Assembly (NCBI RefSeq): GCF_021495345.1
Contig: NZ_CP099397.1
Span: 1-64,000 of the forward strand
Direction of reading: 5' to 3'
Source: Pseudomonas hydrolytica
GTDB lineage: Bacteria > Pseudomonadota > Gammaproteobacteria > Pseudomonadales > Pseudomonadaceae
Length of the DNA: 64,000 bases
Shown here piece after piece: positions 6,159 through 35,549 of this stretch. A program made the position numbers and the translations under genes. The notes beneath the pieces were generated by a model, which saw only the letters and a list, made by a program, of their open reading frames with translations, made no database searches and was not told the origin of the DNA. Position 1 is the stretch's first letter. The number at the start of each line of letters is the position of its first letter.

Positions 6159-6159
<1 letters not shown>

Positions 6160-6163
6160 TTCG
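6159..6163. repeat. Left target-site duplication ATTCG (candidate)
   Basis: ATTCG, including the A of the gyrB TGA stop, abuts the left transposon end and recurs at 35545-35549 immediately beyond the right end. Tn7-family transposases make 5-bp duplications. Removing one copy and the element would restore gyrB followed directly by CTCGCCGTAC and the terminator. Confidence 0.75.
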
Positions 6164-6172
6164 TGGAGGTCG

Positions 6173-6229
6173 TTGAAGTTAATCGGCACTTTCTCCAAAG
6201 TTAGCCGACATCTGCAAAGTTAATCGGCA
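6173..6229 (-). repeat. Left-end TnsB-binding repeats (three copies)
   Basis: Three 16-bp copies at 6173-6188, 6195-6210 and 6214-6229. Read on the minus strand they are TGCCGATTAACTTCAA, TGTCGGCTAACTTTGG and TGCCGATTAACTTTGC. They match the right-end repeats in opposite orientation. The spacing (22 and 19 bp) is tighter than on the right, an asymmetry typical of Tn7-family ends. Confidence 0.88.
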
Positions 6230-6245
6230 ACGGATAGCTGACCTG

Positions 6246-6278
6246 AAACCCCGCAGTCTCTTGGCTTGCGGGGTTTTT
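6246..6278 (+). terminator. Rho-independent terminator inside the transposon left end
   Basis: The 10-bp stem AAACCCCGCA / TGCGGGGTTT is followed by a T run. It lies 87 bp after the gyrB stop but inside the transposon, so it probably now terminates the gyrB transcript and shields the cargo from read-through. Confidence 0.85.
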
Positions 6279-6433
6279 ATTTGTGCTGATGCGAGTTGCA
6301 TAGGTGTAGGTCAAGCAGAGAAAAGCGCTTTTTAGTGCGCCCGTTTCGGCGCGCCATTCGCACTGTTAGCCCTGTTAATATCTACAGTAATTGGGATGTG
6401 CGTGCATCGACCAAGGACGAACAGGATCAAAGA

Positions 6434-9400
6434 ATGCTCAAGCTCGAAGACATCAAGAAAGACGCACAGGTCAGGGGGATCCAGGCGGATGAGATCGTGC
6501 GTATCGTCACGGTCGAGCCTGTTGGCGACAATGCCATTACCGTCTACTTCAAGGACAGCCAGGGCCGACTAGGCGAGCAGATGCTGTTCCGCTCGGACGA
6601 GATGCGCCTAGAGCTTGCTCAGGCTGGCAGACCCTGGTCGTTTGATGCTCCGGGTGCTGACTTTAAGCTTGGATTGGAAGCCTATCGGATCAATCTGGCG
6701 CACCTGTTCGATCCGATGATGGCTGTGCACACGTCCAACGTAGATCCTCTCCCCCATCAGATTTCCGCTGTTTATGAGTCCATGCTGCCTCGGCAGCCGC
6801 TCCGTTTTGTCCTGGCTGATGATCCGGGTGCAGGCAAAACCATTATGGCTGGACTGCTGATCCGCGAACTACTGATGCGTTCGGATGCCAAGCGAATTCT
6901 GGTGGTGTCACCTGGCTCCCTGACCGAGCAGTGGCAGGATGAATTGCTGGAAAAATTCGGCGTGAAGTTCGAAGTCTTCAGTCGTGAGAAACAAGAGCAA
7001 TGCGCCTCGGGTAACTACTTCGAGGAGACCAATCTGCTGATCGCACGCCTCGATCAATTGTCCCGCAGCGAGGAGTTCCAGCAGAAGCTCAAGAACACTG
7101 AGTGGGATCTGATCATCGTCGACGAAGCCCACAAGCTCTCCGCCAACTACTTCGGTAGCAAGGTGAATAAGACCAAGCGCTTCGAGCTAGGTGAGCTGCT
7201 CGGTTCCATCACCCGTCACTTCCTGTTGATGACCGCTACACCGCACAACGGTAAGGAAGAGGATTTTCAGATCTGGCTTTCGCTGCTGGATGGAGACCGC
7301 TTCTACGGCAAATTCCGTGAGGGAGCGCATAAGGTTGATGTCTCCGACATGATGCGCCGTATGGTGAAAGAGGAGTTGCTGAAGTTCGATGGCACTCCCC
7401 TCTTCCCCGAGCGACGTGCCTATACGGCCAACTACGAGTTGTCTGACCTTGAGGCCGCGCTTTACCACGAAGTCACCGAGTACGTGCGCAACGAGATGAA
7501 TCGGGCTGACCAGCTCGATGGTAAGCGCAAGGGCACCGTAGGCTTCGCCCTGACGCAGCTTCAGCGCCGTCTTGCCTCCAGCCCTGAAGCGATCTACCAG
7601 TCGCTCCAGCGGCGTCGTAAACGCATGGAAAATCGCCTGGAAGAGACCAAGCTGCTGGCTCGTGGCCAGGGAGTGGCCAGCACGCTGGGCGAATACCATG
7701 TGAAGAAGCAGATTGAGCTTCCCGATAGCTTCGACGAGTTGGACGAGGAGCTCAGTGCCGATGAGTACGAGCTGTATTCGGAGCAGGTCGTAGACCAGGC
7801 CACTGCTGCGGAAACCATTCCCGAGCTTGAGGCTGAGATCTGGTCACTGAAGGCTCTGGAAGCGAAGGCGCTTTCGGTGGTTCAGTCGGGCAAGGACAAG
7901 AAGTGGGAGCAGCTCTCCTGCTTGTTGCAGGACACACCTGAGATGTTCACCAGCAGTGGCAGCCGCCGCAAGCTGATCATCTTCACCGAGCACCGCGATA
8001 CCCTGAATTACCTGGTTGCTCGAATTGGGAACATGCTGGGCAAGCCCGAGGCTGTCGTGACCATCCATGGCGGCACCAACCGCGATGAACGGCGCAAAAT
8101 TCAGGAGGAGTTCCGCAACAACCCCAATGTCCTGGTGCTGATTGCCACCGATGCAGCGGGTGAAGGCGTGAACTTGCAGAACGCCAACCTGATGGTCAAT
8201 TACGACCTCCCTTGGAACCCAAATCGTCTTGAACAGCGCTTTGGTCGTATCCACCGTATTGGCCAGACAGAGGTCTGCCACTTGTGGAACATCGTTGCCA
8301 ATGAGACCCGAGAGGGGGAAGTGTTCCAGAAGCTTTTCGAAAAACTGGAAATCGAGAAGCAAGCTCTAGGCGGTAAAGTCTTCGATGTACTGGGCGAGGC
8401 CTTTGACAATATCTCGCTCAAGGATCTGTTGATCGAAGCCATCCGCTACGGTGATGCGCCGGAGACCCGTGCCAAGCTTACCCAGGTCATTGATGGGGCC
8501 TTGGATACCGACCACTTGAAGGAAATCCTGCGCCGCAACGCTTTGGTCGAGCAGCACATGAGCCTGGCTGACCTCTACGCAGTGAAAGAGGAAATGGAAA
8601 AGGCCGAGGCCCGTAAGCTTCAGCCCTACTTCATCCGCGCCTTCTTCACCGAGGCTTTCACCTCGTTGGGTGGTGAAATGCGCCCTCGTGAGTCTGGTCG
8701 CTATGAGATTCGCCATGTGCCGGCAGGCCTACGTGAACGGGATCGTGTGATCGGCGAGAGCCGTACGCCCGTGTTGAAGCAGTACGAGCGCATCTGCTTT
8801 GAAAAGCAGCATGTACGGCTACATGGCAAACCCATGGCCGATCTGATTCACCCTGGTCATCCGTTGATGATGGCCAGCACCGACCTGATCCTCTCGGCAC
8901 ATCGCAGCAAGCTCAAGCAAGGCGCGATTCTGGTTGACCCCAATGACGACGGCATTCAACCCAAGGTGCTGTTTATGATTGACCACAGTGTTCGGGAGAA
9001 CATGTCCCAGAACACTAATCAGGCCAAAATCGTTTCCCGCCGTTTGCAGTTTGTCGAGATCGATCAGCATGGCAACACCATCAACGCTGGCTGGGCACCT
9101 CACCTAGACCTGCTGCCCATCGAGAATGCGGATCGCCAGTTGATTGGTGATGTGTTGTCAGCTCCATGGATTACCCAAAACCTAGAAGCTTTGGCCCTGC
9201 ATCATGCTTCCGAACATTTGGTTCCGCAGCATTACCAAGAGGTGAAGGTTCGACTTGAGCGCCAGGCGGATAAGATTCTGGGTGCAGTGAATGAGCGCCT
9301 GGTGAAGGAGATCAACTACTGGTCGGATCGCTTTATCAAGCTCAGCGAGGATGTCAGCGCGGGTAAACAGCCGCGCATGCAGCCAGAAAATGCCCGTCGC

Positions 9401-9970
9401 CGTGTAGATGAACTTACGGCTCGCCTCAGCCAGCGTAAGAGTGAGTTGGAGGCGATGAAGAATGTGGTATCGAGCACCCCAGTTGTCCTGGGCGGTGCTC
9501 TGGTTATTCCAGCAGGGCTACTGGCACAGCGTAAAGGCGAAACCACCTTCTGTGCCGACGCCGAAGCCCGTTCGCGCATTGAATGGGCAGCAATGAACGC
9601 AGTTATTTCTGCTGAGAAGGCCATGGGCCATGAGATTTTTGATGTGTCGGCACAGAAGTGCGGCTGGGATATCACCGCCCGTCCACCTGTTGGGCCGGAC
9701 AATGCCCTGCGCGATGATCGTCATATCGAGGTCAAGGGGCGCGCCAAGGGGGCCACTACCGTCACAGTGACCAAGAACGAGATCTTCTCCAGCTTCAACC
9801 AGGGCGAGAAATTCATCCTCGCCATCGTCTTGGTGGACGGTGATCAGGTCGATGGCCCCTACTACATCAAGCACCCGTTCAAGACTGAGCCTGAGTTCGG
9901 TGTAGCCAGCGTCAACTACGATCTGCAAGAGCTGCTTGGTCGCGCTATTCAACCAGAGGCCAGCCTTTGA
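6434..9970 (+). CDS. SNF2/DEAH-family helicase with C-terminal DUF3883 (Hma/DISARM-type defence)
   Basis: A 1178-residue superfamily 2 helicase of the DrmD/HepA kind. Seen: Walker A DDPGAGKT (about 129-136), DEAH in VDEAHKL (about 230), MTATPHNG motif III (about 265), and helicase-C motifs [12 protein letters not shown] and [10 protein letters not shown] (about 571-611). The C-terminal 80 residues (about 1096 on), with [10 protein letters not shown], match DUF3883, a PD-(D/E)xK-like module often fused to such helicases. The start at 6434 is chosen because AGGA lies 8 bp upstream and [10 protein letters not shown] begins the folded part; the longer reading from 6296 adds a basic, unlikely tail. 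It is first gene of a five-gene operon with methyltransferase, GmrSD-like nuclease and ATPase. Role in DNA translocation during phage defence is inferred from family and context. Confidence 0.9.
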
Positions 9971-10275
9971 GCAGTAGCAATTTTTCCCAGCGAACAAAGA
10001 TAGACGCTCCAGAGCTTTCGCTACCGGGGCGTCGGGCCAGCGATGTTATCGCTGGCGATAGCGATCTGACTAAACCTATCCAGCAGGTACGCAAGCGCTT
10101 CCCGAAAAAGCGGTTGATTGTGGTGTTTCCGGCCAATAGCCAATCTGCGCAGCTCAAGAAGGCAGCCAATGGTTACCTCTCCATTGGTGAAGACAAGCTA
10201 CGTCAAAACCAATTGCCAAATACTGTGATGAATTCCAGTGGCTTTGCCCTGCATCGCCCAACCCACTGGAAATAA
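9967..10275 (+). CDS. Small protein resembling the C-terminal end of NYN-domain RNases; probable internal-deletion remnant
   Basis: A 102-residue reading frame starting with TTG that overlaps the helicase stop by 4 nt, preceded by AGAGG, so it can be translated by coupling. Residues 45-102 ([19 protein letters not shown] ... [19 protein letters not shown]) resemble the C-terminal part of NYN/PIN-like nucleases, including the final RPxxW. The usual N-terminal catalytic half with its acidic residues is absent, and residues 1-44 look like a foreign or residual start. I infer a deletion derivative; it could also be a genuine short partner protein. The family match is by eye only. Confidence 0.55.
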
Positions 10276-10285
10276 GGAATTTTCG

Positions 10286-13183
10286 ATGTATCCCATTAAA
10301 ACCCCCAAGAAGCTGATTGAGGTGGCCCTACCACTGGATGCCATCAATGCGGCTGCGGCACGTGAAAAATCCATCCGGCACGGCCACCCCAGCACTTTGC
10401 ACCTGTGGTGGGCGCGACGTCCCTTGGCCGCAGCACGAGCGGTGATTTTTGCGCAGATGGTCAATGATCCTGGCTTCGAGCGTCATCTTGGCCGAGGGGT
10501 AAACAAGGAAAAAGCCGCAGCTGAACGCGAGCGTCTATTCAAGATCATCGAAGAGTTGGTGCAGTGGGAGAACACCAATAACGAGGAGGTTTTGGAACGA
10601 GCACGGGCTGAAATCTGGAAGAGTTGGCGCGAGACTTGTGAGCTCAATAAGGCACATCCGCAGGCTGCGGAGTTGTTTAATCCGGAAAAACTGCCTGGCT
10701 TTCATGATCCCTTTGCTGGTGGCGGTGCATTGCCGCTTGAGGCGCAGCGGCTGGGCCTTGAAAGCTACGCGTCCGACCTTAACCCTGTGGCGGTAACCAT
10801 CAATAAGGCGATGATCGAAATACCGCCGAAGTTTGCTGGTCGTGTGCCGGTCGGGCCGGAAATCGATGCCGACAAGGGCAGTAAGAAGCGCTCAACCCGT
10901 GATGCTTTCGAGGACTGGTCAGGTGCCAGGGGCCTTGCTGAGGATGTGCGTCGCTATGGTGCCTGGATGCGCGAACAGGCCCAACAGCGCATTGGCCATC
11001 TGTATCCGAAGATTGAAGTCACCGCCGAGATGGTCGCAGAGCGCCCGGATCTTGCCCAGTATCAGGGCGAGAAGCTGACGGTGATCGCCTGGTTGTGGGC
11101 ACGCACAGTAAAAAGTCCTAACCCAGCGTTCAGTCATGCCGAGGTGCCGCTAGCTTCTACCTTTATCCTGTCCAGCAAGGCAGGCAAGGAAAGCTATGTC
11201 GATCCGGTAATTGAGGGTGACAGCTATCGCTTTGAAGTCCGTGTAGGTACGCCTCCTGCATCAGCTAAAGGAGGAACTACAGCGGGCAAGCGTAGTGCCT
11301 TTATCTGCCTCCTATCCGGTGTGCCAGTGGATTACAACTACATTCGAGCCGAGGGTCAGGCTGGGCGAATGGGGCAACGGCTAATGGCAGTGGTGGCAGA
11401 AGGCGCGCGCGGTCGGGTCTATCTGTCACCGACCCAGGAGCAGATTGACGTGGCAGGCTCTGCCCAGCCTGATTGGGCACCGGAAATGGACTTGCCTAAC
11501 AACCCGCGTGACTTTAAGACGCCGAACTATGGGCTGGGCAAATTCGGTGACCTATTTACTCCCCGCCAACTGGTTGCGTTGAGTACTTTCACCGATCTGG
11601 TGCAAGAAGCCATCACTCGCGTGCGCGAGGATGCTCTGGCCGCTGGGATGTCTGACGATGGGGTGGGGCTGGATCAGGGGGGCACGGGCGCTACGGCTTA
11701 TGCGCAGGCGCTGGGGGTGTATTTGGCGTTTGCTATCAGCAAGGTCAGCAATATTGGTTCGACCGTTGCCTCATGGATGAATGATCGTGGCGCATTCCGA
11801 GAAACTTTCGCTCGACAGGCTATCCCTATGGTTTGGGATTTTGCTGAAGCAAACCCGTTCGCAGACGCGGGTGGTAGTTTTGCCACTGCTATTGATAAGG
11901 GAGCTATGGCTGTCCGTGATTTGCCTGAAGATGGCAAGGGGCAGGTCTTTCAGCAGGATGCCCAGACGCAAGTGATCAGCCAAAACAAACTGATTTCGAC
12001 CGACCCGCCTTACTACGACAATATTGGCTACGCCGACCTATCGGATTTCTTCTATGTCTGGTTGCGCCGCTCGCTGCGACCGATCTTTCCCAATCTATAC
12101 GCGACCTTGGCAGTACCCAAGGCCGAGGAGCTGGTCGCCACCCCCTACCGTCATGGCAGCAAGGACAAAGCCGAGGCTTTCTTCCTCGATGGTATGACCT
12201 CTGCCATGCACAATCTCGCCGAGCAGGCCCATCTGGCCTTTCCGGTGACCATTTACTACGCCTTCAAGCAATCAGAAACCAAGGATGACGGTGGCACTTC
12301 CAGCACCGGCTGGGAAACTTTCCTTGCCGCAGTACTTAAGGCTGGATTTGCATTGACCGGTACCTGGCCAATGCGTACTGAGGGTGCGGGGCGCTTGATC
12401 GGTAAAGGCACTAATGCGCTGGCTTCCAGCATCGTACTGGTCTGTCGCCCGCGCACAGCAGATGCACCTACCATTTCGCGTCGCGACTTTATCCGAGAGC
12501 TAAATGCCACCCTGCCAGATGCGCTGGCTGATATGACCCGTGGCGGTATTAACTCGCCGGTTGCTCCTGTGGATCTGTCCCAGGCCATCATTGGCCCTGG
12601 CATGGAGGTGTTCAGCAAGTACAGCGCAGTGATCGAAGCCAACGGTAAGCCGATGACTGTGCGTACGGCGCTGCAACTGATCAACCGCTTCATCGGCGAG
12701 GATGACTTCGATCATGACACCCAATTCTGCTTGGCCTGGTTCGAGCAGCATGGTTGGGCCGAGGGTAAGTATGGCGATGCCGACGTTCTGGCTCGGGCCA
12801 AGGGCACCAGCGTTGGTGGTTTGATAGAAGCCGGTGTAGTGGACAGTGCGGGTGGCGATTTACGGCTACTCAAGTGGGCCGAAATGCCTCGGGATTGGTC
12901 TCCGGAGAACGATAGCCGTTTGGCTGTGTGGGAAGGCCTCCATCAGTTGATCCGTGCTTTAAACCAGGATGGCGAATCCGCTGCGGGAGCCCTGCTGGCC
13001 CGGATGCCCGATAAGACAGCCAGTCTGAACGCGCTGATGTACCGTCTCTACACCTTGTGCGAGCGTCAGGGCTGGGCCGAAGAGGCCCGTGCTTACAATG
13101 AACTCCAAGGTGCTTGGGCGGGTATCGAGCTGGCCTCTCAAGAAATTGGTCATTCGAATACGCAAGTGCAAATGGATATCTGA
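10286..13183 (+). CDS. DUF1156 adenine-type DNA methyltransferase (Hma-type)
   Basis: A 965-residue DUF1156 protein. The N-terminal signature is [19 protein letters not shown] (about 30-48). The SAM-binding motif is [18 protein letters not shown] (about 141) and the catalytic DPPYYDN motif is at about 573, so target-recognition sequence is inserted between them. DPPY points to amino methylation (N6-adenine or N4-cytosine). The start at 10286 has AAGGAA 8 bp upstream; the longer version overlaps the preceding gene. In related loci this enzyme presumably marks self DNA while the helicase and ATPase act on unmarked DNA; that is inference from family knowledge. Confidence 0.92.
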
Positions 13184-13198
13184 TCAAGGAAGTAACGA

Positions 13199-14917
13199 AT
13201 GCAGAACCGGAAGCTGTCGATCCGCAAAATCGTTTCCTATCTGAATGACGCTGAGTCGGAGGGCGGTGGCTTCTGGCTGCCCAATATTCAGCGTCCTTTC
13301 GTATGGAGCGAGGAACAGATCAGTCGCCTGTTTGACTCCATCATGCGTGAGTACCCGATTAGCACCTTGCTGGTTTGGAAGACTCGTGAAGAGGTCAAGC
13401 ACCGCAAGTTCATCGACAACTACCATCGCGACATCAAGCTGACCGATTACCGGGTGCCGGACAACACGCGCTCGAAGATGATGGTGCTCGATGGTCAGCA
13501 GCGCCTGCAAAGCCTGTTTATCGGCTTGAAAGGCAGCTACAGCGGGCGTGAGTTGTACTTCGATGTGCTCAGCGGTGGGGACATGGCTGCTCCCGAGGAC
13601 ATTCGTTACCGTTTCGCCTTCAAGGATAAGGGGTCTGCCAGCTGGCCCTGGGTGCGTTTCAAGGACATGGTGTTCATCAACAACAAGCTCGATCTCCAGA
13701 TTGCCCAAGAGCTTGCTTCGCTGTCGCCTGAAGAGCTGTCAGCAGACGAGCAAATGACCTTGCAGCTGAACGTAGGGCGTGTGCGCAAGGAGTTCGTCAA
13801 CGACGACAACATCACCTTCCAGGAGCTCGACGGGATTGATAACCCGGACGCTTATCGGGTGGATGACATTGTCGAAATTTTCATCCGAGCCAACTCAGGC
13901 GGCACCAAGCTGGGCAAGTCGGATCTGCTGTTCTCCCTGCTGACCTCCAGCTGGGATGAAGCCGACGGTGAAATCGAAGCACTGCTGGAAGACCTGAACC
14001 AGGGCGGCTTTGATTTTGACCGTGACTTCGTCCTCAAGTGTTGCCTAACCGTCCTGAACAAAGGCGCACGGTACGAGGTAGAAAAATTCCGGGATGGTAA
14101 GACCAAGGAAGAGATCATTGCCCAATGGCAGCTGATCGCTGATGCCATTAAGGACGTGCGGGATTTTGTGGTCAGCAAGACGTATATCCGCAGCGACAAG
14201 GCCCTGCCCTCCTATCTGGCACTCATTCCGCTGATCTATTTCCGTTACCAGCACCCGGCTCAGTTCAAAGCTAAGGCAGGGCTGCCTGAGTATTTGCTGC
14301 GTTCACTGGTGAGTGGCGCCTTTGGTGGCAATCCTGACCAGTTGATCGACAAGCTCGTGCGCAACATCCAAGAGCACGAAGATTTTGTGGTCAGTGAAAT
14401 CTTTGGAGTGATTCGCGCCGATGGCCGCAGCCTGGAGATCACACCGGAAGTCATCTTCAACCAGTACTATGGTTCCCGTTCGATCCACCTGTTCTTCAAC
14501 CTGTGGTATCGCGACTTCAATTACTCGCCGGCACTGGGCGCCAATGGCCCGCAGGTTGACCATATCTTTCCGCAGAGCCTGCTGAAGTCGGTTAAGGACA
14601 TCAACCCGGACAGTGGCAAGCGCAATATCCTGCGCTATCGCTCCGAGCATCGGGATCAGATTGCCAACTGCATGCTGCTGACAGCGGATGAGAACGGATT
14701 TGACGGCAAGTGTGCGATTCCGCCACACGAGTGGTTTGATCGCGCCAGGTTTAAAAGCGATGAGGAGCATGAGCAGTACCTGGCTATGCACCTCATCCCT
14801 CAGGATCCCGAGCTGTGGAAGCTTGAGAATTTCGAAGCGTTTATTGAGGCGCGTAAGCAGTTAATCCAGGACAAGTTCAGCTACATGCTGCGCACCGCTC
14901 AGGGAGACCATGTATGA
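13199..14917 (+). CDS. DUF262/DUF1524 GmrSD-like nuclease
   Basis: A 572-residue protein with the architecture of GmrS-GmrD fusions, type IV restriction enzymes. The N-terminal DUF262 domain has a ParB-like fold with IQRPFVW and the NTP-binding motif DGQQRLQSL (about 97). The C-terminal DUF1524 His-Me finger nuclease has VDHIFPQSL (about 453) and the trailing [15 protein letters not shown]. It starts 15 bp after the methyltransferase stop and overlaps the ATPase gene by 4 nt (ATGA), so it is an integral operon member. It may supply the nucleolytic effector; substrate unknown. Confidence 0.9.
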
Positions 14918-17754
14918 CCCTTAAACCTTGGCGTGAGATCGCCGAGCCCCATGAAGATGTGCGTAAAGGCACTTTCGTTCAGGCTGAATTCGCTGCTGAC
15001 ATCACCCGTGTGCATACTGGCACGGCTTCACCGGAGTACCAGAACCCTGCGCTGTTCTTCGAGCGTACCTTCATCACCGAGGGTATGGCGTTGCTGCTGG
15101 ACTCCGTGGTTAAGCGCTTGGCAGGCAAAGGCGGCGATCCCGTCATTCAGCTGCAAACCGCATTCGGTGGCGGTAAGACCCATACCATGCTGGCGGTTTA
15201 TCACTTGGCCAGTGGCAAGGTGCCTGCCAGTGAAATGCCTGGCATCCCCAACATTATCGACAAGGCTGGGGTCAGCGAATTGCCGCGAGCACGTATTGCC
15301 GTGCTCGACGGGATCAAAGCTTCGCCGAACCAGCCGGTTCAGCATGGCCCCGTTCAGGTTCATACCCTGTGGGGTGATCTGGCTTGGCAGCTGGGTGGCG
15401 AGGAGGGTTATGCACTGGTGGCCAGTGCTGATCAGTCGGGCACCTCTCCGGGGAAAGATGTTCTAGAGCAGGTGCTTAAGCTCCATTCCCCCTGCGTCAT
15501 CCTGGTCGACGAGCTGGTGGCCTACATTCGTCAGTTCGAAGAAGGTAAGGCTCTCACCGGTGGCACCTTCGATTCCAACTTGAGCTTCATCCAAGCACTA
15601 ACTGAAGCCCTAAAAGCGGTTCCCACTGCGGTGATGCTGGCTTCGCTGCCGGAGTCAGAAAAAGAGGCGGGCAGCCAGCGTGGTGTTCGTGCTCTGGAGT
15701 CGCTGTCCCATTACTTCGGTCGTGTACAGGCGCTGTGGAAGCCGGTCGGTACTGAAGAGGCTTTCGAAATTGTCCGGCGCCGGCTATTCAGCAATATCTC
15801 GGATCGTCTGGCTGCGGAGAAGGTGTGCCGTACCTTCGCCGATTACTACATTGCGAACAGCGCTGAGTTTCCTGCGGAAACTCAGGAAAGCCGCTACTAC
15901 GAGCGCCTGCTGCACGCCTACCCGATCCACCCTGAAGTCTTTGACCGCCTCTACGAGGACTGGTCAACGCTAGATAACTTCCAGCGTACCCGTGGCGTGC
16001 TGAAGATGATGGCCAAGATGATCTTCAGCCTGTGGAAGGACGGGAACAACGATCCGCTGATCATGCCGGGCAGTCTGCCGTTGGCCGATCCTGATTCACG
16101 TAACGAGGTCACCTACTACCTGCCGCCTGGTTGGGATCCGGTGATGGAGCGTGATATCGACGGCCCGCGCGCCGAGACCGTTGCTATCGAAAATCACAAT
16201 GCCCGCCTCGGTAGTGTGCAAGCCTGTCGTCGTACTGCACGTACCATTTTCCTTGGTAGCGCTCCGACTACTTCAGGTCAGGTACTGCGTGGTATCGAGC
16301 TGATGCGAATCATGCTGGGCACTGTACAACCAGGCCAACAGGTTGGTTTGTTCAAGGATGCTCTGCGCAGCCTGCTGGACAAGCTGCATTACCTGAACAA
16401 CTCCAATAACCACTACTGGTTTGATACGCGCCCGAACCTGCGTCGTGAAATGGAGGAGCGCAAGAAGCGCTACAAGGACAAGGAAGATGTCTTCCCTGCT
16501 ATTCGCAAGCGGGCCCAGGAGAGCTTTGCCGGTGGGTTGTTTGGTGGCATCCATGTGTTTACCGACAGCGTGGATGTACCGGATGACTGGCAGCTGCGTT
16601 TGGTGGTGCTGTCGCCGGATGCGGGGTACAGCAAAAGTGGTACAAGCCAAGCCATTGTGAAGGCCGGCGAGATCCTGAAGAACCGTGGTGATCAGCCTCG
16701 TGGTAAGCAGAATCGACTGATTTTCTTGGCCGCTGAGCAGGACAACGTCAGCCGACTGAAGGATCAGGTGCGCACCATGTTGGCATGGGAGTCCATCGTC
16801 AACGACTACAAGGACAACCGCATCACCCTGGATAACCTGATGGCGAGAAACGCCACAGCCAGCCTCGATCAGGCCAAGGAAGCGCTTAAGCGCATGATCC
16901 GCGAAACCTATAAGTGGTTGCTGGCTCCCGTCCAGACAGCTGTGGCAGGTCGTGGTTTGTCAGACATTCAGTGGGAGCATTTTTCGGTCAATCCAGGTGC
17001 AGCCAACCTGACTCAGGAAATTGAGCGGGTGCTCAAAGAGAATGAGCTGTTGATCACCGAGTGGGCGCCCTACCACCTCGCCAACATGTTGAAGACTTGG
17101 TTCTGGAAGGATGATGTCAAGGAAGTGGTTGCTCAGGAGGTGTGGCAGAAGAGCTGCTGCTACTTGTACCTCCCCCGACTGCGTGACAGCACTGTATTTC
17201 TTAACACCTTGAGTGTTGGCTTGGAGAGCGGTGATTTCTTCGGCGTTGCCCAAGGTAAGGATGGTGATCGCTACCTGGGCTTTGTCTTCGCCAAGTCCGC
17301 CCTGGTTACCCTGGATGCTTGCGAGATCATTGAGCCATCAACAGCTGCTGCCTATGCCGAAAAGCTTCGGAAGGAGAAGGAAGAGGCTGAGCTGGCCAGA
17401 CGCAAAACTCAGGAAGAGAGCGATGCTCATAAGCCGGACTTGAAGGGAGATGGTGGCGCTGAGCCTGAGCCACAGGGCGGGAGCAGTGGCTCAAATGATC
17501 CTGTTGAAGAGATCAGCAAAGCTTTGGCCACGCAGTTCTATGCGTCCACCAGCTTAGATCCTGTGAAGGCAAAAATGGACTTTGCGCTGCTTGTTGACGA
17601 GGTCGTACAGCAGTTCACCGCCAAGCTGGGTGTGGATGTGAAGATCTCTGTTGAGATTCAGGCGACCAGCAAAGCTGGCTTCGATGATGGATTGCAGCGA
17701 GCCGTTAAGGAAAACTGCAACGTCTTGAAATTCAGTTCGGCAGAGTTCGAGTAG
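14914..17754 (+). CDS. DUF499 AAA+ ATPase (Hma-type)
   Basis: A 946-residue DUF499 protein. Walker A is [10 protein letters not shown] (about 82-91), Walker B is [10 protein letters not shown] (about 195-204), and a conserved ASLPESEKE sensor segment follows. A charged low-complexity stretch (about 815-860, [16 protein letters not shown] then Gly/Glu-rich) separates the core from a small C-terminal domain. Large DUF499 proteins occur with DUF1156 methyltransferases and helicases in anti-phage loci; it likely acts as an NTP-driven regulator or motor. Last gene of the operon, followed by a terminator. Confidence 0.9.
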
Positions 17755-17778
17755 GACACACTAACTTGAGAGACTGAA

Positions 17779-25896: not shown

Positions 25897-26007
25897 CAGC
25901 AATCGCCCCCACCTCAGCCAACCTTTACCGAGGCAATTCAAAAATGGTCATTAGCGGCCAAGTCGCTTGCATACCAAAAAGAAAGGTAGAAGACAGGGGG
26001 CGGAAAA
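25897..26007. promoter_or_regulatory. Divergent promoter region, recombinase operon / small HTH gene
   Basis: A 111-bp gap between two divergently oriented genes must hold both promoters. It is AT-richer than its flanks (AAAAAGAAAGGTAGAAG). No operator palindrome was evident by eye. Confidence 0.4.
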
Positions 26008-27976: not shown

Positions 27977-28375
27977 CTAGAAAACATGAATAATGGTAGA
28001 CAGTTGAGCTGACTTGCGGGTTCCTTGGCCAATTAGCAAATAAATTGTATTTTGTGTTTCAAACAAGTGTCCATCTGAAAACTTTACAAGTGGCGTGCTG
28101 CGAGCCCAGTCGCCTGGGTTGAAACGGCCAGCGCTATCAAAAATAACGCTATGGGCATAAACCATTACTGGCTGAAGTCCATCACTAATGATTTTAGTTC
28201 GGACAGCTTCGGGCATTTCAAGGTCAATCCAGATCCAGTTCCGTATTACACAAAATGGCTTATTTAGAGAAAGATTTCGAGCATAACTGATAGCTTCACT
28301 ATCTAGCATGTCACGACCGAGCATTGGTACGCCTTCGCCGTGAAGCAGTTCATTAATCGCTTCGAGGATATCCAT
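27977..28375 (-). CDS. Hypothetical small protein, DSxGRF family copy 2
   Basis: A 132-residue protein with VYAHSVIFDSAGRFNPGDWARS (about 72-93) and HLFETQNTIYLLIGQG (about 102-117). The DSxGRFxxGxxxR core matches the 126-aa protein at 26508-26888. It resembles a family common in Pseudomonas that I associate, without certainty, with the label DUF6957. AGGAGAG precedes the ATG. It lies among mobile-element genes and nothing in its sequence shows a catalytic function. Confidence 0.75.
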   Translation of the reverse strand: MDILEAINELLHGEGVPMLGRDMLDSEAISYARNLSLNKPFCVIRNWIWIDLEMPEAVRTKIISDGLQPVMVYAHSVIFDSAGRFNPGDWARSTPLVKFSDGHLFETQNTIYLLIGQGTRKSAQLSTIIHVF

Positions 28376-28419
28376 GGCTCTCTCCTGGTAAGTACTAGAT
28401 TAAGGAGTAGGTGGCTTCG

Positions 28420-29481
28420 CTACAGAGTGCGGGGTTGTTTTATAAACGACACGTATCCATTGTCATGTGCGGAATCGACAGTTGTGACTTCATCCATAAA
28501 TTCTTTGAACGAGTCTGTTGGCATATCGGTTATTAGTTCGGTAGTAAATTCATTATGCAGTACGGTGAATGTATAGGTTTTCTTGACCAGTGAGTCGTGA
28601 ATTGGAGTCTTTAGTTCGTTGAGGTAATGGCCGCTCCATGCGAAAGGGTCGGCCCCGTCTTCCAGCACGCGTGACAATGCATGTCGAAGTGACGTCACCT
28701 CTCTTAAAGTGAATGTTTCGCCGTCACTGATCAGCGTTGATAGGTGGAGCCAACTGCGAAAAAGTTTTTCTTCGTTCGAAAGAAACGCGAGTTCGTGCAC
28801 GAGTTCTGATGACTCTGGAAAAACAAACCACACTTTGTCGAAATAGCTACGTGCGGTCTTCGCGAGCTTGAGTAATTCAGCGGCAGCTTTGATGGCTTTG
28901 CGTGACGTGTCCCCAAGGCGGCAGAAAATGGCGGTGTTATCTTGGCCATGTCGGTCTTTTATGATGAAGAATTGACCGAGTACATCGGAGCGCTCGACGT
29001 GGATGATTTCGCCTTCCTCGATACCGAAGAATGCGGTGCCACAGTTGGTCAATGCCATCACTGTATTGCGTTCATGCTCAAAGACGAGTGACCGGGCTTT
29101 TGAGCGTTTCCCTGCATCGCTTTTGGCGATCCGATCAGCGTATTTCTCGATGATGGACTGAAGGGCCTCCAGCGTGACCTTCTTAGAAATCGCCATGCCT
29201 ACCAGAGACTGAGCCTCTTCAGGTGCAAGCTCATGCAGGCGTTGAATGTACTCAACGTGAGCGTACCCACCACGGACGTCTTCTGGTGAAAGTGGGCCGA
29301 CGAGACGATCTAAGAATCGCCCGGCTCGGATCATTCTCGATAACACTTTTGGCTCATAGTTGTGTTCAGCCGCAAGCTGCTGAATGAGAAGGTTGATGCT
29401 GTCCTTGCCTTCGTAGGCATCCAATGCGGGCTGCACCTGCCTGTAGATCGCATACCAGGGCCCTTTCTTCCGCTTGCTCAT
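28420..29481 (-). CDS. Hypothetical protein, 353 aa, divergent from tnsA
   Basis: Unrecognised. Starting MSKRKKGPWYAIYRQVQPALDAY, the first 140 residues are helical (LLIQQLAAEHNYEPKVLSRMIRAGRFLDRLV; ISKKVTLEALQSIIEKYADR), reminiscent of the HTH part of ParB-like or KorB-type proteins but without a GxxR ParB motif. The C-terminal half is mixed (FFIKDRHGQDNTAIFCRLGD). The start at 29481 was taken because the upstream extension is Cys/Trp-rich and crosses the promoter region of tnsA. A regulator of tns expression is one possibility, from position only. Confidence 0.65.
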   Translation of the reverse strand: MSKRKKGPWYAIYRQVQPALDAYEGKDSINLLIQQLAAEHNYEPKVLSRMIRAGRFLDRLVGPLSPEDVRGGYAHVEYIQRLHELAPEEAQSLVGMAISKKVTLEALQSIIEKYADRIAKSDAGKRSKARSLVFEHERNTVMALTNCGTAFFGIEEGEIIHVERSDVLGQFFIIKDRHGQDNTAIFCRLGDTSRKAIKAAAELLKLAKTARSYFDKVWFVFPESSELVHELAFLSNEEKLFRSWLHLSTLISDGETFTLREVTSLRHALSRVLEDGADPFAWSGHYLNELKTPIHDSLVKKTYTFTVLHNEFTTELITDMPTDSFKEFMDEVTTVDSAHDNGYVSFIKQPRTL

Positions 29482-29617
29482 CCTATGTTCCTTCAGCCTG
29501 ATGGGTCTGGGGTGTGGCCCCGATTGGTTCCAGCTTAGCAAATTTGTGGAACAGTTCCAGTATTGACGACAAAGAAAAGGTTGGCTATGGTGCTCAAATC
29601 TGGGAGACAGTACCAAA

Positions 29618-30325
29618 ATGAGAGTAGCCCCAACGACGGAAAGGCAGATTGATCCTGCGAAGCGGACGCGCCGAGGGCGGCCAGCGTTCCGGATGTCCTC
29701 AGCTGGCAAAGGTGACGTGGTGCTGAAGTGCCAATCACGTCTTGAGTGGCTATTCGCGATGCTCTTTGTGCTTCACCCTGGCATCAGTGAGATCTACTTT
29801 CAGCCGCTGATCGTCAATCTGACAAGAAGCAAGGTGTACAGAAAGAAAATAAAGCTAGACCCGCGATGTAAATATTACATTCCGGACTTTTTGATCGTAG
29901 TGAATGGGAAGGAATTTATCGTCGAGGTTAAGTCTGCTGCATTGCTAGGGATGACCAACAAAGATTTTGACCAGATCCAAGAGATATTCGAAAAGAATGC
30001 AATTGGTTTTTGCAAGCTTACAGAACTGGATTTGGGAGAGGCAGAGAACAATATCCGCATTCTTTATGAATATTGTGTTCATGATGCTGACTCTGTCACG
30101 ACATGGTCGAATGATCTAAAGAGTTTGCTCGAAACTCATCAGGGCATTAACCACGTTAAAGAGTTGGCTGGATTGGTGGAGCCAGTCAATTGGTATGTTT
30201 GTGCCGGTATTTTGCGTGGCGTAATAAGTTTCGATCTGCTGAGTTGGGATTTGATGGGAATGAATTTTCCGGTTGTTCAGGCCTATGGCAGCCTCAAGCA
30301 TTTGGAGGTAATTAGCTTTGTCTGA
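29618..30325 (+). CDS. tnsA: TnsA-like endonuclease
   Basis: TnsA cuts the 5' strands at the transposon ends so that TnsAB-type elements excise fully (cut and paste). The 235-residue protein has the restriction-endonuclease-like core: Glu43 (SRLEWLF), Asp90 (YYIPDFLI) and Glu103-Val-Lys105 (IVEVKSA), in the order of the TnsA catalytic residues. A C-terminal region (about 130-235) should contact TnsC. The stop overlaps the start of tnsB by 8 nt. AT-rich relative to the chromosome. Confidence 0.9.
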   Translation: MRVAPTTERQIDPAKRTRRGRPAFRMSSAGKGDVVLKCQSRLEWLFAMLFVLHPGISEIYFQPLIVNLTRSKVYRKKIKLDPRCKYYIPDFLIVVNGKEFIVEVKSAALLGMTNKDFDQIQEIFEKNAIGFCKLTELDLGEAENNIRILYEYCVHDADSVTTWSNDLKSLLETHQGINHVKELAGLVEPVNWYVCAGILRGVISFDLLSWDLMGMNFPVVQAYGSLKHLEVISFV

Positions 30326-32249
30326 AGGTTTGAAAGTCGGAATGGTTACGAAAATCAATGGCGACTTGTTCGTAATTGATGAAATACTCCTGTCAATTAA
30401 TACCGTACGTTTGGTAGGCAGTGGTGGCGCAAGACTAGAAATTGACTGTGATAAATTTTATGAAAAATTCTCGTCTGGAGAGTTTGTTCTTAATAAAGAA
30501 TTTGAGGTTGCAAAATATAGTGTAGATAGCGACGCAGCAAGGGAAGAGACCCAATTCAGAATGGAACTAGTTGACTTGTATAAAGATCATCTAGAGAAAT
30601 GCTCGAAAAAAACTGATGTCGAGAGAGATATTTCAATATTCTGTTTTAAGCGAGGCCATAAGCCTGTTCGCCTGAGGACAGTCCGTGAATACTATAAAAA
30701 GTACGCTGATGGAAACTATGCAGCTCTCGTACCCAACTATGGTGGTAGAGGTGGCTGTGGTTGGTCTTCAAAGAAAGAGTACGTGGAATTTGTTAAACAG
30801 AAGGCAATTGAAATCTACTTCGCGGATGACAAAGTCAATAAGCGAGGGTTTTATAAACAGGTTGATGAGCTTTTAAGGCAAAAGCTTGGGGATCAAGCTC
30901 CAGAAATAATCATCAGTGAAAGCACATGCAGCCGGACTCTAGAGGGTTTACCCGTTAGGTCTGCTCTCAACGGTAGGCTTAGCAAAAAAGAGCTAAATCT
31001 TGAAGAGCGTAGAGCTATCAAGAAGTACCGCGACTGTAGAGTTTTCGCTGTTGTAGAGCTTGATGCCTGCACCATAGATGTTATGAGTGTGGATGAGCAT
31101 GGAAGAAAGCATACGGAGGTTACGCTCTATCTAATGCGTGATGTTCGGACATCGTATCCAGTAGCTGTCTATGTTATGGCGGGCAAGCCAAGCGAGATGG
31201 GCCTATATAAGATTTTGGAGCAATTCTACAAGCCACGAGACGAAGCGTACTACAAGTCTCTTGGTGTGAACGGGGTAAATATAGTCTCAGCAGCGCATAT
31301 CGGGGTGCTAGTTATTGATAACGCATCCGAGCACTTTGGTAAGTTGGTATGGGAAGTTATTCGCAGGCTTGGTGTGATCGTTAAAAACACGCGCCAGTAT
31401 CGTGGTGATGATAAAGGCTATGTTGAGTCCGGATTTTCCATTTTGAACAAGCGGCTCTTAGGTTTTATGCCGGGAGCAAAGAAAAGTAACGATAAGCGTG
31501 TTAAAAATAGAATGGCAAAAGCTGACGAAGAGGCCTGCTATTCAGTCGAGTATATTTTTAAAGAAATCGTTGAATTTTTCTATGGTACATATATCCATGA
31601 GCTAAGACCCGACCTGGGATTCATCTACGGCAAGCCTATGACTATTGCTCAGGCCATGGAAAAAGAGCTGTCACTATTTAAGCCTCTACCTCCGCCGTCT
31701 CTTGATAAATTTAAGAAGCTGATTGTCACAATGCATTGTGAGGAGCGGAAGTACCAGCACTACGGTGTGGATTTTAAAAATTTCCAGTTCAACTCGACAG
31801 AGCTTGCCAGGTATATGGATAAATCCGGCGAGAAATCTGTACTGGTATATTTCAATCCGGCTGATTGTACGAAGATTTATGTGGCAAAGAAAAGTGATAG
31901 GGAGGGTACGCTTATTGAGGCGCAAAATAAAATGCTGGGAATCCCAGAGATATCATTTGAGGAGGCCTCATCACTTCTAGCTGAGTATTCCGGTGACCAC
32001 ATTATGACTGGTAAGGAATTTCAGAGAATATATGCAAGGAAGCTAATGAAGTTCACTGAAGACAGTCGGCGTAAACCCAAAGTCAAGGACGTCAATAAGT
32101 CTGTAAGAAACAATACGAAGAAGGAATTTAACCAAGAGGTCGGAAAAGCGCTATCTAAGGATGCGGTAAAACCTAAGCAGGTCACTTTTAGTGAAGCCTC
32201 ACATGATGATGATATTACTCCATCTGAGTGGAGTAGTGGTCATGATTAA
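30318..32249 (+). CDS. tnsB: TnsB-like DDE transposase
   Basis: A 643-residue transposase of the retroviral-integrase superfamily. The catalytic triad is visible: Asp in VVELDACTID (about 248), Asp in VLVIDNASEH (about 334) and Glu in DKGYVESGFS (about 369). An N-terminal helical region (RTVREYYKKYADGNY) should bind the end repeats at 6173-6229 and 35413-35536; the C-terminal part ends in a Lys-rich tail likely to contact TnsC. It overlaps tnsA by 8 nt and tnsC by 8 nt. Confidence 0.93.
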   Translation: MSEGLKVGMVTKINGDLFVIDEILLSINTVRLVGSGGARLEIDCDKFYEKFSSGEFVLNKEFEVAKYSVDSDAAREETQFRMELVDLYKDHLEKCSKKTDVERDISIFCFKRGHKPVRLRTVREYYKKYADGNYAALVPNYGGRGGCGWSSKKEYVEFVKQKAIEIYFADDKVNKRGFYKQVDELLRQKLGDQAPEIIISESTCSRTLEGLPVRSALNGRLSKKELNLEERRAIKKYRDCRVFAVVELDACTIDVMSVDEHGRKHTEVTLYLMRDVRTSYPVAVYVMAGKPSEMGLYKILEQFYKPRDEAYYKSLGVNGVNIVSAAHIGVLVIDNASEHFGKLVWEVIRRLGVIVKNTRQYRGDDKGYVESGFSILNKRLLGFMPGAKKSNDKRVKNRMAKADEEACYSVEYIFKEIVEFFYGTYIHELRPDLGFIYGKPMTIAQAMEKELSLFKPLPPPSLDKFKKLIVTMHCEERKYQHYGVDFKNFQFNSTELARYMDKSGEKSVLVYFNPADCTKIYVAKKSDREGTLIEAQNKMLGIPEISFEEASSLLAEYSGDHIMTGKEFQRIYARKLMKFTEDSRRKPKVKDVNKSVRNNTKKEFNQEVGKALSKDAVKPKQVTFSEASHDDDITPSEWSSGHD

Positions 32250-33126
32250 TAGGGTAATACATCATCAGCGATTTAATGAGGCTGTAGATGTTGTTTATGA
32301 CGCATATATTCGTTGTGTGGAAGACGAGCCTGTTATTCAACCTGTGTTTGGTCTGAGTGGTGTCGGGAAAACATTTTCGATCAGGCTTCTAACAGAGAAA
32401 ATCAGAGCAGGTGGAGAGCATGAAGTACTGGTGGTCGAATTCCCCCCAATTCGTAGCTACCGAGCCGTTATTGATGAGTGTCTGATGGTTTTTAAGCTGT
32501 CTCCACGGGCATATAAAAATGAAGCGATTGCCCTGGAGGGGCTGAGAAAGCAAGTTCAATCCAGAGGCGTCAAGCTCATCATATTTGATGAGGCTCAAAA
32601 TCTTCTTGAACGCAAAATAGGCATAGACCCTAAGGCCATGGGAGATACAATAAAGCATATAAGTAATAAATGTGGTGTAAGTATCGCTGTATATGGTCTT
32701 CCCGATGCGGAGCGACTATTCAAAGGGGATGATCAACTTGCGCGAAGGTCGTTGGCTCCCTTTTATTTTTATCCATATGAATGGGTTGGGGCTGAGTTCA
32801 AGTACTTTCGAAATGCATTAGGTGCATCAATCCAGTATTTGCATTCGTTGGATATAGAAACCTTCAAGATTAATGATCTTGATTTTGCTAAGCGTATGTA
32901 TGTCGCAAGCTCTGGTCGCATAGCTTTTAGCGAAAAGCTAATTAAAGAGGTCGTTCGAATGAAAGTTAAGTCGGCTTTTCTTGAGGAATTTGAAACGGCT
33001 TACAAAAGAGCATCATACTCTTTGCTTCTTGGTTCTAATCCATTTGCACCTGACGCTAAGATATCTGATCAAGACATGGCAATGTCGTACACCTCAGCAA
33101 TGGATCAGGCGCGTGCTCATGTCTAG
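32242..33126 (+). CDS. tnsC: TnsC-like AAA+ regulator of transposition
   Basis: A 294-residue ATPase: Walker A GLSGVGKTF (about 37-45) and Walker B LIIFDEAQNL (about 112-121). TnsC bridges the target selector TniQ/TnsD and the transposase. The ATG at 32242 lies in the end of tnsB (overlap 8 nt); an upstream extension would duplicate tnsB coding sequence. It overlaps tniQ by 8 nt, so the module is translationally coupled. Confidence 0.9.
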   Translation: MINRVIHHQRFNEAVDVVYDAYIRCVEDEPVIQPVFGLSGVGKTFSIRLLTEKIRAGGEHEVLVVEFPPIRSYRAVIDECLMVFKLSPRAYKNEAIALEGLRKQVQSRGVKLIIFDEAQNLLERKIGIDPKAMGDTIKHISNKCGVSIAVYGLPDAERLFKGDDQLARRSLAPFYFYPYEWVGAEFKYFRNALGASIQYLHSLDIETFKINDLDFAKRMYVASSGRIAFSEKLIKEVVRMKVKSAFLEEFETAYKRASYSLLLGSNPFAPDAKISDQDMAMSYTSAMDQARAHV

Positions 33127-34936
33127 TCTGTATCCTCACTTTGTTAAGCCATACAATGATGAATCGTTTGATGGGTATCTTTGTCGTGCAGCGGCGGATC
33201 TAGGTTATTCGTCTCCTAGCTGGCTGCTTACTGAGATTGGTATCAAGGATTCTCGTAATTGTTCGGATGAGGATATTTCTGGTTTTGCTCAGCATTATGG
33301 GCTAGATCAAACGCAGTTGTTGCGTATGTACCATTATGGATCCGTTACGGGAGCAAGATGGCGAGGTAATTTTTTTCGTTCCAAAGAGCATTATGTCTGC
33401 CCACAGTGTATGAAAGATGCTGTGTATTTGAGGCAGTCATGGTGTCACGTCCTTTGCACCGCTTGCAGTTCCCACGGTGTGCAGTTGGTGCCGCTAAATA
33501 ATTACGGTGCTGACCTCGGTCTTGGCACAAATTTAAGTTTATTTATGTTTTTTGAGTCAAGCCTAGGTGAATCTCCAGTAAGCAGCATGGCTGCTTCAGT
33601 TGGTCAAATTGAATTGGCCAAAATGCTAGCTGATGCCAATAAAGCTGCTGAAGTATTTTCATTAATCACCGTTGATGGAAAGCTTCCTGAGGATTTCTCT
33701 AATTTCTTGATGCTGCTATCTGAGCTCAAGTCAGGGCGTACTTATAATAAGAATAAAAATATTGGGTTTGATCAGGCGATACAGGTTGCATCCGATATAG
33801 CTGAGCTTCTATTAGATTTCGAGAATGCTTTTGATAAAAATGTTATAGGTCGTATTAGTTCGGCTAATGCAAGGGTGTCCGGTGGTTTTATTCCTGCTTT
33901 GGGCGGATGGTATAAAAGGCTTCATAGAGATTTTACTTCAGCTCCCTATGACCAGCTCCGGGATAGGGTCTCTCGTAAATTAGTTGCTCATGCAGAGGCA
34001 CCGTTAAACCGGAAATTGAAACGAATTGGCTCGGCGTTACTGGAAGAGAAGAAGTCACTTACAGGATCTGAAGCGGCCAGAATGCTTAACTCTTCTCTCG
34101 ACAAGATTGTAGCGATGGTTAAATCAGGCGATCTTAAAGGGCGTATTGTTGAAACCTCCGCTAATGAATTCTGTATGGTTTCAAGGGTTGAGGTTGACCG
34201 GTTGCGACAAGAGTCAGAGAAATTTCTTGACGGTAACCAAGTAATGGATCTTTTGGGTATTCCTAAACGTCTGAAGGATCGACTTGTTGAGTGTGAGATT
34301 CTGGTTCCAGTTAGCAATGAATCTCGGAGTAAGTTTTCTCGTGGAAAATTTAAAAGAGAGACAGTGTTGCAGTTGATTGAAAATCTCGAAAGTTATTACC
34401 AGCCTAAGAAATTTTTATCGGGCTCAACCATGTGCTCGATTAGTCGTAGAAGGTTAAATAAAAGTATCTCGGAAGATATCTATACTGCGATATTTTCCGG
34501 AGAAATTCAGTGCGTTCACATTGATCAGTCCAAGCAAGGGATGGATCGTTATATTTTTGATGACGCGGACATTGATTTAATTGTTGATCGCTCAGGCAGA
34601 AAAGTTGAAATGTCTGTGGCGGATATGCTCGATTTATTTGGCTACAAGCATGCAGAAGTCAAAGGGTGGATCAATGGTGGCCTGTTGAAGGCGCGTTCTG
34701 AGTCACATGGTGAGCACGCTAGGTACTACATATCTCTTCCTGAGTTTAACGAATTCAAGAGTCGCCATATCGTTCTGTCAAAAGCTGCACGCGATATGGG
34801 AAAACTGCCTGCACATTTGGCTAATTCACTTAGGGCTCGCGGGTTGCTGACTGAGACTGAGCTTCCAGAAGGGGATGGAAGACGAGGTTTTCTCATCGAC
34901 GTGCAAAAGCTTCTACTCTACGCTTTGGCGCACTAA
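33119..34936 (+). CDS. tniQ: TniQ/TnsD-family target-selection protein
   Basis: A 605-residue protein. The N-terminal TniQ domain has the zinc-finger pattern CPQC (about 94-97), then W, and CTACSSHG (about 115-122). The long remainder, as in TnsD, holds several winged-helix or excisionase-like modules: GSEAARMLNSSLDKIVAMVKSGDLKGRI (about 315-342), GNQVMDLLGIPKRLKDRLVECEIL, and VADMLDLFGYKHAEVKGWINGGLLKAR. It is the only TniQ in the element. The insertion point suggests that it recognises the 3' end of gyrB, as TnsD recognises glmS. Confidence 0.88.
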   Translation: MSSLYPHFVKPYNDESFDGYLCRAAADLGYSSPSWLLTEIGIKDSRNCSDEDISGFAQHYGLDQTQLLRMYHYGSVTGARWRGNFFRSKEHYVCPQCMKDAVYLRQSWCHVLCTACSSHGVQLVPLNNYGADLGLGTNLSLFMFFESSLGESPVSSMAASVGQIELAKMLADANKAAEVFSLITVDGKLPEDFSNFLMLLSELKSGRTYNKNKNIGFDQAIQVASDIAELLLDFENAFDKNVIGRISSANARVSGGFIPALGGWYKRLHRDFTSAPYDQLRDRVSRKLVAHAEAPLNRKLKRIGSALLEEKKSLTGSEAARMLNSSLDKIVAMVKSGDLKGRIVETSANEFCMVSRVEVDRLRQESEKFLDGNQVMDLLGIPKRLKDRLVECEILVPVSNESRSKFSRGKFKRETVLQLIENLESYYQPKKFLSGSTMCSISRRRLNKSISEDIYTAIFSGEIQCVHIDQSKQGMDRYIFDDADIDLIVDRSGRKVEMSVADMLDLFGYKHAEVKGWINGGLLKARSESHGEHARYYISLPEFNEFKSRHIVLSKAARDMGKLPAHLANSLRARGLLTETELPEGDGRRGFLIDVQKLLLYALAH

Positions 34937-34937
34937 A

Positions 34938-35288
34938 GTGAAGCGCAAGCTAGTTAGTACCAGTCTATCAGTCCAGTCTCGTTACGAGCGGTTACGTAGC
35001 TATGATTTGGATTGCACTGTAACGGGCTATCTTCTCGATGTTGAAATCTGTGTTTGCCATGTTGTTGGGAAGGTATATGACTCGCGCCATACTGGCGATG
35101 GTTGCCAAATTTTCCCGGCTCAGATCGTTGGTATTCACAAATATCAACGAGGTCTATGGTGCATTGAAACTGATAGTGATTACTACGCTGTTGTTAGCTT
35201 TAAACCCAAAGGCCGTGTATCACTAGATTTTTATCTCTCTCTCATTGAATCGGTAAGGCTTTTACCGTCCTCCAATAAGTGCCACTGA
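34938..35288 (+). CDS. Hypothetical small protein, DSxGRF-related copy 3
   Basis: About 116 residues from a GTG 1 nt after the tniQ stop; an ATG at 34875 would overlap tniQ by 62 nt and give 137 residues. The segments VTGYLLDVEICVCHVVG, GLWCIETDSDYYAVVSFKPKGRVSL and LSLIESVRLLP align with VTAYLTNTTIVSCCGVG, GAFWVLRTLSGSFYVIVSFDPHGGRQSL and LKLREQGVHLTP of the protein at 26508-26888. The function is unknown. It is the last gene before the right end of the transposon. Confidence 0.68.
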   Translation: MKRKLVSTSLSVQSRYERLRSYDLDCTVTGYLLDVEICVCHVVGKVYDSRHTGDGCQIFPAQIVGIHKYQRGLWCIETDSDYYAVVSFKPKGRVSLDFYLSLIESVRLLPSSNKCH

Positions 35289-35412
35289 GCACCATATTGC
35301 TCCAGCAGTTGTCGTGTTGAAATCTGAATTGCATTGACATTTTGTCAATAGTCCATTAACTTCATCTAACCACTTTATGCCAGTTATCAGGCAGGCGCCT
35401 CTGTAGGTAATG

Positions 35413-35536
35413 TGTCGATTAACTTTGACGAAACATAGGTTTTTGCCGTTTTACTTTGATTAAGCATGCCGCTTAACTTTGAAGTGACAACGATAGAATC
35501 AAGGCTTGCGGGTTGGGGAATGTCGGTTATCTTTGA
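35413..35536 (+). repeat. Right-end TnsB-binding repeats (four copies)
   Basis: Four 16-bp copies: 35413-35428 TGTCGATTAACTTTGA, 35444-35459 TGCCGTTTTACTTTGA, 35467-35482 TGCCGCTTAACTTTGA, 35521-35536 TGTCGGTTATCTTTGA. Consensus TGYCGNTTAACTTTGA, in opposite orientation to the left-end copies. A degenerate fifth copy may lie near 35350 (AGTCCATTAACTTCA). Between 35289 and 35412 nothing else was recognised. Confidence 0.9.
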
Positions 35537-35544
35537 CGACCTCC

Positions 35545-35549
35545 ATTCG
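35545..35549. repeat. Right target-site duplication ATTCG (candidate)
   Basis: ATTCG directly follows the right-end sequence ACGACCTCC and matches 6159-6163. Base 35545 could instead be the last base of a perfect terminal inverted repeat. Confidence 0.75.

Follow-up and report, generated by a model that had tools for sequence, protein, structure and literature searches.

The first 64,000 nt of the Pseudomonas hydrolytica genome (bases 1–64000 of a single-contig 5.29-Mb Pseudomonas genome; the whole stretch analysed, hereafter the window) contain a Tn7-like transposon of approximately 29 kb that starts 4 bp past the gyrB stop codon (Table 1). In agreement with a first-pass annotation of this DNA, the element carries tnsA, tnsB, tnsC and tniQ genes, and both copies of an ATTCG duplication are present, the left one sharing its A with the stop codon. 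The outer 10 bp of the element form a perfect inverted repeat, TGGAGGTCGT ... ACGACCTCCA, and TnsB-type 15-mers of the type CAAAGTTAATCGGCA occur three times at the left end on the plus strand and four times, inverted, at the right end on the minus strand. All seven sites score at least 21.5 with a matrix built from the same seven, and the next best site in the 64 kb scores 13.4. The G+C content is 41–58% across positions 6164–35545 versus mostly 60–69% in the flanks.

The element terminates in TGG...CCA in the window and in TGT...ACA in its relatives. With canonical TG...CA ends, no more than TTCG (4 bp) remains outside the window element, because the A at position 35545 doubles as end base and duplication base. 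Judged by sequence, the element would thus be either 6164–35544, in which case the duplication is 5 bp and the right end is short of its final A, or 6164–35545, with a 4-bp duplication; the outer limits given earlier (6159–35549) take in both duplications. The site before insertion could be reconstructed, as the first-pass annotation had expected. In a genome whose gyrB 3′ end is 92% identical (here labelled G324), the stop codon is followed directly by TTCACTGGCGGTACAAAAGCGAACCCC with no element, and the right flank of the window from position 35546 aligns to this genome from the first post-stop base with 92% identity over 265 bp. Three further genomes (G028, G399 and G075) also have empty sites, in which gyrB is followed by the homologous right flank.

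Table 1 Features of the element and its flanks in the window
Feature	Positions	Strand	Basis or remark
gyrB, attachment gene by its 3′ coding end	3676–6159	+	827 aa, six GyrB-type Pfam domains
Target duplication, left copy, ATTCG	6159–6163		A is the final base of the gyrB TGA stop; G324 empty site
gyrB-proximal end	6164–6229	+	TGGAGGTCGT and TnsB-type sites 6174–6188, 6196–6210, 6215–6229
Terminator-like hairpin in left end, in an orientation that would terminate gyrB transcripts	6246–6280	+	Fold −20.2 kcal/mol, z −5.8
HmaA helicase	6434–9970	+	PADLOC 2255 bits; ORF opens at TTG 6296, model fits from residue 47 (ATG 6434)
HmaB adenine methylase	10238–13183	+	PADLOC 1814 bits
GmrSD-type protein (PADLOC HEC-05), between hmaB and hmaC	13199–14917	+	
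HmaC ATPase (DUF499)	14914–17754	+	PADLOC 1573 bits
IetS-like S8 protease	18883–21375	−	
IetA-like AAA ATPase	21393–22382	−	
Two RepB/ParB-like proteins and large serine recombinase	22515–25941	−	
tnsA	29618–30325	+	Tn7_TnsA-like_N, E 1.3e-5, 26.1 bits (cut-off 26.5); homologues precede tnsB in relatives
tnsB, DDE transposase	30318–32249	+	Mu-transpos_C; Tn6677 TnsB match 3e-7
tnsC, AAA regulator	32191–33126	+	TniB 46.7 bits (cut-off 22.4); VchTnsC 6e-12
tniQ, TnsD-type, 605 aa	33119–34936	+	PF06527, alignments, fold; ORF opens at 32981, homologues begin near ATG 33119
Small ORF overlapping tniQ end	34875–35288	+	Some relatives have homologues downstream of tniQ
Far end	35413–35545	−	TnsB-type sites 35413–35427, 35444–35458, 35467–35481, 35521–35535 and ACGACCTCCA
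Target duplication, right copy, ATTCG	35545–35549		G324 empty site
gyrB's own terminator, now 29 kb off	35562–35600	+	Fold −18.8 kcal/mol; directly after gyrB in G324

Relatives of the element at gyrB

The first-pass annotation had proposed a search for tnsABC–tniQ elements near gyrB, and such a search places them there consistently. The window TniQ has matches in 28 of 398 Pseudomonas genomes (counting its own), and all 28 have an element end 4–12 bp past the gyrB stop. Of the 27 other genomes, 24 have tniQ downstream of gyrB with both genes on one contig and strand; in G397, G097 and G006 the two genes are on separate contigs. Besides the window element, three kinds were distinguished by end sequence and gene order. 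Elements ending in TGTAGG(T/C)GGG, the nearest kin of the window by TniQ, and those ending in TGTCGA(T/C)GGG have the cargo first and the tns genes towards the far end, and in those ending in TGTAGG(T/C)TCA the tns genes adjoin gyrB. Other TniQ types of Pseudomonas are located elsewhere, several of them approximately 32 kb upstream of gyrB at a locus that we take to be glmS; the TniQ pairs at that distance were set aside as a separate group.

When the 398 genomes were searched for a gyrB-like stop with TGTMGR 2–12 bp behind it, at any position in the genome, 117 gave matches. Among 150 listed gyrB places, which are the best gyrB matches rather than a random sample, the motif stands 2–12 bp past the stop in 27, where an estimate from base frequencies gives approximately 1%; 45 pattern matches, intended as those from the 150 genomes concerned, entered the comparison. 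Some of the 27 places are remnants. In three genomes, G012 (L098), G018 (L099) and G007 (L100), the gyrB stop is followed by an element-type end, but the approximately 10 kb examined contain no related tns gene; these would be remnants or non-autonomous elements. The first-pass annotation had called gyrB an uncommon target; these counts revise that view, and gyrB is the regular target in this TniQ branch.

Beyond the genus sample, a scan of genome contigs with the window TniQ alone returned no loci, and a scan with a TniQ alignment (A1) returned 17, of which 8 were in genomes already counted and 9 were new. An element end lies 5–6 bp past the gyrB stop in eight of the nine new genomes, namely P. 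taiwanensis, P. lactucae, P. izuensis, P. viridiflava, Pseudomonas sp. LP_7_YM and the alphaproteobacteria Roseovarius, Pseudooceanicola and Roseibium; the ninth, a Kiloniella metagenome-assembled genome, does not have one there. Six of the eight carry tniQ downstream on the gyrB contig, and in LP_7_YM and Roseibium the locus is split over contigs. A class-level survey found a TniQ match in 10 of 303 genomes, the window included. The best of the nine others (G525), from another family, carries an element 3 bp past the gyrB stop, and its duplication, GATGT, takes in two stop bases. In the remaining eight, whose TniQ matches are weaker and partial, no element end follows gyrB, and because of these eight more distant relatives homing to gyrB marks one TniQ branch and not TniQ proteins at large. 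Related TniQ proteins at other loci, which the first-pass annotation had named as evidence against its proposal, were accordingly seen among these more distant relatives. Its expectation of a nearly universal target was gauged in Alpha- and Gammaproteobacteria, and both classes use the site. TniQ matches were absent from plasmids, hence no plasmid route was seen.

We searched 32 relatives, the window excluded, for both ends. With a far end defined as ending in ACA, having no more than one mismatch in the outer seven bases and being followed by the left-side 5 bp, of which approximately 0.02 are expected by chance per 30 kb, a far end with a perfect 5-bp duplication was found in 22. The far end was not reached before the contig end in G338, G004 and G728, lies beyond the stretch examined in G725, G238, G266, G093, G066 and G257, and was not found within 39.8 kb in G721; G005 and G232 each gave two candidate far ends by this definition. 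A further element-type end follows directly after the right duplication in Pseudooceanicola (L205, G727) and two bases past it in G149 (L184), suggesting that elements or remnants are stacked at gyrB in both; the stretch examined in G149 holds no second tns gene set.

The first 6.9 kb of the element are at least 99.9% identical in G238, G266, G093, G066 and G257, the gyrB 3′ ends of which are only 79–92.5% identical and the left 5-mers of which read TCAGG, TCAGG, TCCGG, ATTGG and AGGTA, respectively. These comparisons demonstrate, at the sequence level, that near-identical copies have spread among species. In G345 (L256), hmaA cargo (96% nucleotide identity over 3.6 kb) and part of hmaB (82%) are found at gyrB under a different end, which points to cargo having been swapped between elements at the gyrB site.

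Selection of the gyrB target

The distance from the stop codon to the element is 3–7 bp in 25 of 26 insertions and 12 bp in one, and the insertions have a single orientation wherever it can be read. The last 20 gyrB codons specify nearly one protein sequence, with most first and second codon positions invariant. Little conservation is found in the duplication (0.1–0.7 bits per position) or in the right flank (0.0–0.8 bits in 24 flanks, among which the right ends of G004 and G005 are chance picks). Because duplications and right flanks share so little sequence, the insertion point itself is not read, and the gyrB side is the likely signal.

The proteins encoded by the element offer a candidate reader. 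By sequence, the closest solved structures for TnsB, TnsC and TniQ are those of type I-F3 CRISPR-associated transposon (CAST) proteins, and TnsA has no match among solved structures. In TnsB, D249, D254, D334 and E370 are invariant across 25 TnsB sequences. TniQ is predicted to consist of a TniQ core followed by C-terminal winged-helix modules, as indicated by VIA-align and by Pfam HTH_17, which all 15 members examined match at E values up to 1; Foldseek with the model of the C-terminal part alone gave no match at E 0.001. The TniQ tree omits four copies identical to that of G238 as well as the short TniQ of G525, o_G276, G097, G232, G397 and L166, includes the long TniQ of G525 as a 439-aa ORF, and contains 19 hand-picked 'other' TniQ proteins; for four of these 19 (G277, G365, G176 and G211) the gyrB position was not seen. 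No TnsE match was found among the scanned window ORFs, a scan that did not take in all ORFs and included no search aimed at TnsE. A 429-aa ORF of no clear family (28420–29709, minus strand) adjoins tnsA.

We consider it highly probable that the element is a Tn7-like transposon, presumably of the cut-and-paste kind, whose dedicated site is the 3′ end of gyrB, the codons of which would be read by the TnsD-type TniQ. TnsB, the DDE transposase, would bind the repeats at either end of the element and excise it together with TnsA; TniQ would bind the conserved 3′ codons of gyrB and recruit TnsC; and insertion would follow approximately 5 bp past the stop in a single orientation, leaving gyrB intact, with a hairpin inside the gyrB-proximal end taking over from the terminator moved 29 kb away. 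The copy in the window may itself be active. Conservation of the gyrB 3′ end is also expected from coding constraint and does not by itself identify TniQ as the reader.

A partner protein could instead read gyrB, with the small ORF at the end of tniQ encoding the reader and TniQ acting as a bridge, by analogy with TnsF at comM in Tn6022. Relatives of the small ORF, for which no Pfam or PHROGs match and no known family was found, sit downstream of tniQ in some TGTCGA-ended elements, several as tandem pairs, and passages of PMC10293859 present TniQ as a hub for TnsF. We nevertheless regard this as improbable, as tblastn and phmmer found the small ORF only in the window, G346, G371, G149, G097 and L161 and not in the other gyrB elements searched, whereas the long TniQ is common to gyrB elements; moreover, TniQ here exceeds 600 aa, and a passage of a published survey takes more than 400 aa to suggest direct selection.

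Still less credible, and with very little chance of being right, is that the gyrB position is merely a tolerated hotspot near the origin, where islands are swapped by recombination in the flanks or insertions elsewhere are lost. The Hma cargo found under a different end in G345 does indicate that site content has been exchanged. However, insertions fall within a few base pairs of the stop in one orientation, 22 of 32 elements have their own 5-bp duplication as expected of independent insertions, near-identical elements whose hosts have diverged gyrB genes differ in their left 5-mers, Alphaproteobacteria use the same site and the other TniQ types of the genus lie elsewhere. Least probable of all is RNA-guided homing by a CRISPR-type guide matching gyrB, as in the type I-F3 CASTs, whose proteins are the nearest solved structures to TnsB, TnsC and TniQ: the scanned element ORFs (not all were scanned) contain no cas domain, the element contains no 20-mer repeated at 45–90 bp spacing and no tandem array, and the last 300 nt of gyrB share no more than 13 consecutive nt with the element (best match 23/32), which shuffled gyrB equals (10–13 nt, 21–23/32).

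Tn7 inserts at the glmS terminator. Read as a transposon with a TniQ-selected gyrB site, the element shares with Tn7 (TnsABCD, attTn7 at glmS) the TnsA, TnsB and TnsC proteins, a TniQ-domain selector and, in its relatives, the 5-bp duplication, as well as insertion just past an essential conserved gene, in one orientation and with the gene intact (for Tn7, in part a 2024 review, PMC11406308). It differs in its site, approximately 5 bp past the stop of gyrB and not at glmS, and, in the group of the window, in having cargo before tnsA and tniQ at the far end. Type I-F3 CASTs (Tn6677 and kin; Tn7017) have the closest solved TnsB, TnsC and TniQ, and parE, the gyrB paralogue, is a TniQ-read site in their branch, for example in Tn7017, according to part of the same review (PMC11406308); here, by contrast, there is no CRISPR array and no spacer-like gyrB match, and the target is gyrB rather than parE. 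Tn6022/AbaR (TniQ and TnsF, at comM) and Tn6230 (yhiN) are likewise Tn7-like elements with chromosomal sites of their own; in Tn6022/AbaR, however, comM is inactivated and TnsF-read, whereas here gyrB is intact and no common TnsF-like partner was found.

Few chromosomal sites of Tn7-like elements are given in the review, namely glmS, yhiN, comM, tRNA genes, parE and RNA-guided ones (PMC11406308), and gyrB would add to them. P. putida HB3267 has a Tn7-like cluster, B479_00025–00140, which, judged by locus tags, probably starts right after gyrB; the passages of PMC4731212 on this cluster make no remark on gyrB as its site. Our search of the openly licensed literature, which did not extend to supplements or most subscription papers, turned up no mention of gyrB as a Tn7-type site. 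We regard the gyrB attachment site and its branch as new and the element as one of a known kind.

A wider reading, which we hold to have about an even chance of being correct, is that proteobacterial chromosomes have in gyrB a second general attTn7-type site, read across Alpha- and Gammaproteobacteria by an old TnsD branch with a winged-helix array and used by elements that carry a replacement terminator, with end motifs at roughly one in six of the listed Pseudomonas gyrB places (27/150); this branch would have a sister reader in the TnsD by which some I-F3 CASTs recognize the paralogous parE. Spanning two proteobacterial classes, the site is a natural, orientation-specific and gene-sparing landing pad, which in the window adjoins the dnaA–dnaN–recF–gyrB cluster, and diverged putative readers of one short coding sequence make the sequence code of TnsD-type readers testable.

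Terminator-like hairpins and cargo

A terminator-like hairpin in the direction of gyrB lies no more than 200 bp inside the gyrB-proximal end of 31 of 37 elements, starting at 54–85 bp; six of the 37 are near copies, so the 31 hairpins are not independent. Random windows of the same elements, on either strand, contained a hairpin in 138 of 1,280 cases. The hairpin was not found in G120, G724, G525 and the three alphaproteobacterial ends. A standard terminator scan of positions 5900–6700 returned none, because the loop exceeds the limit of the scan or the stem is imperfect, and the hairpin in the window comes from a separate finder combined with folding. It probably replaces the displaced gyrB terminator and would end gyrB transcription. 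The constant position of such hairpins within the element ends suggests transcript-level selection for insertions that do no harm. To the right of gyrB's own terminator lies the rsmX small RNA gene (35679–35784; Rfam, 68.4 bits), which places the island between gyrB and a regulatory RNA gene.

The cargo of the window element includes a complete Hma set. Lying inside the Hma system, the HEC-05 gene is possibly a nested defence gene or one that cooperates. With Hma, HEC-05 and Iet here, the gyrB site is also a place of defence cargo exchange. The pair of RepB/ParB-like proteins and the large serine recombinase possibly form an integrative unit of their own inside the transposon.

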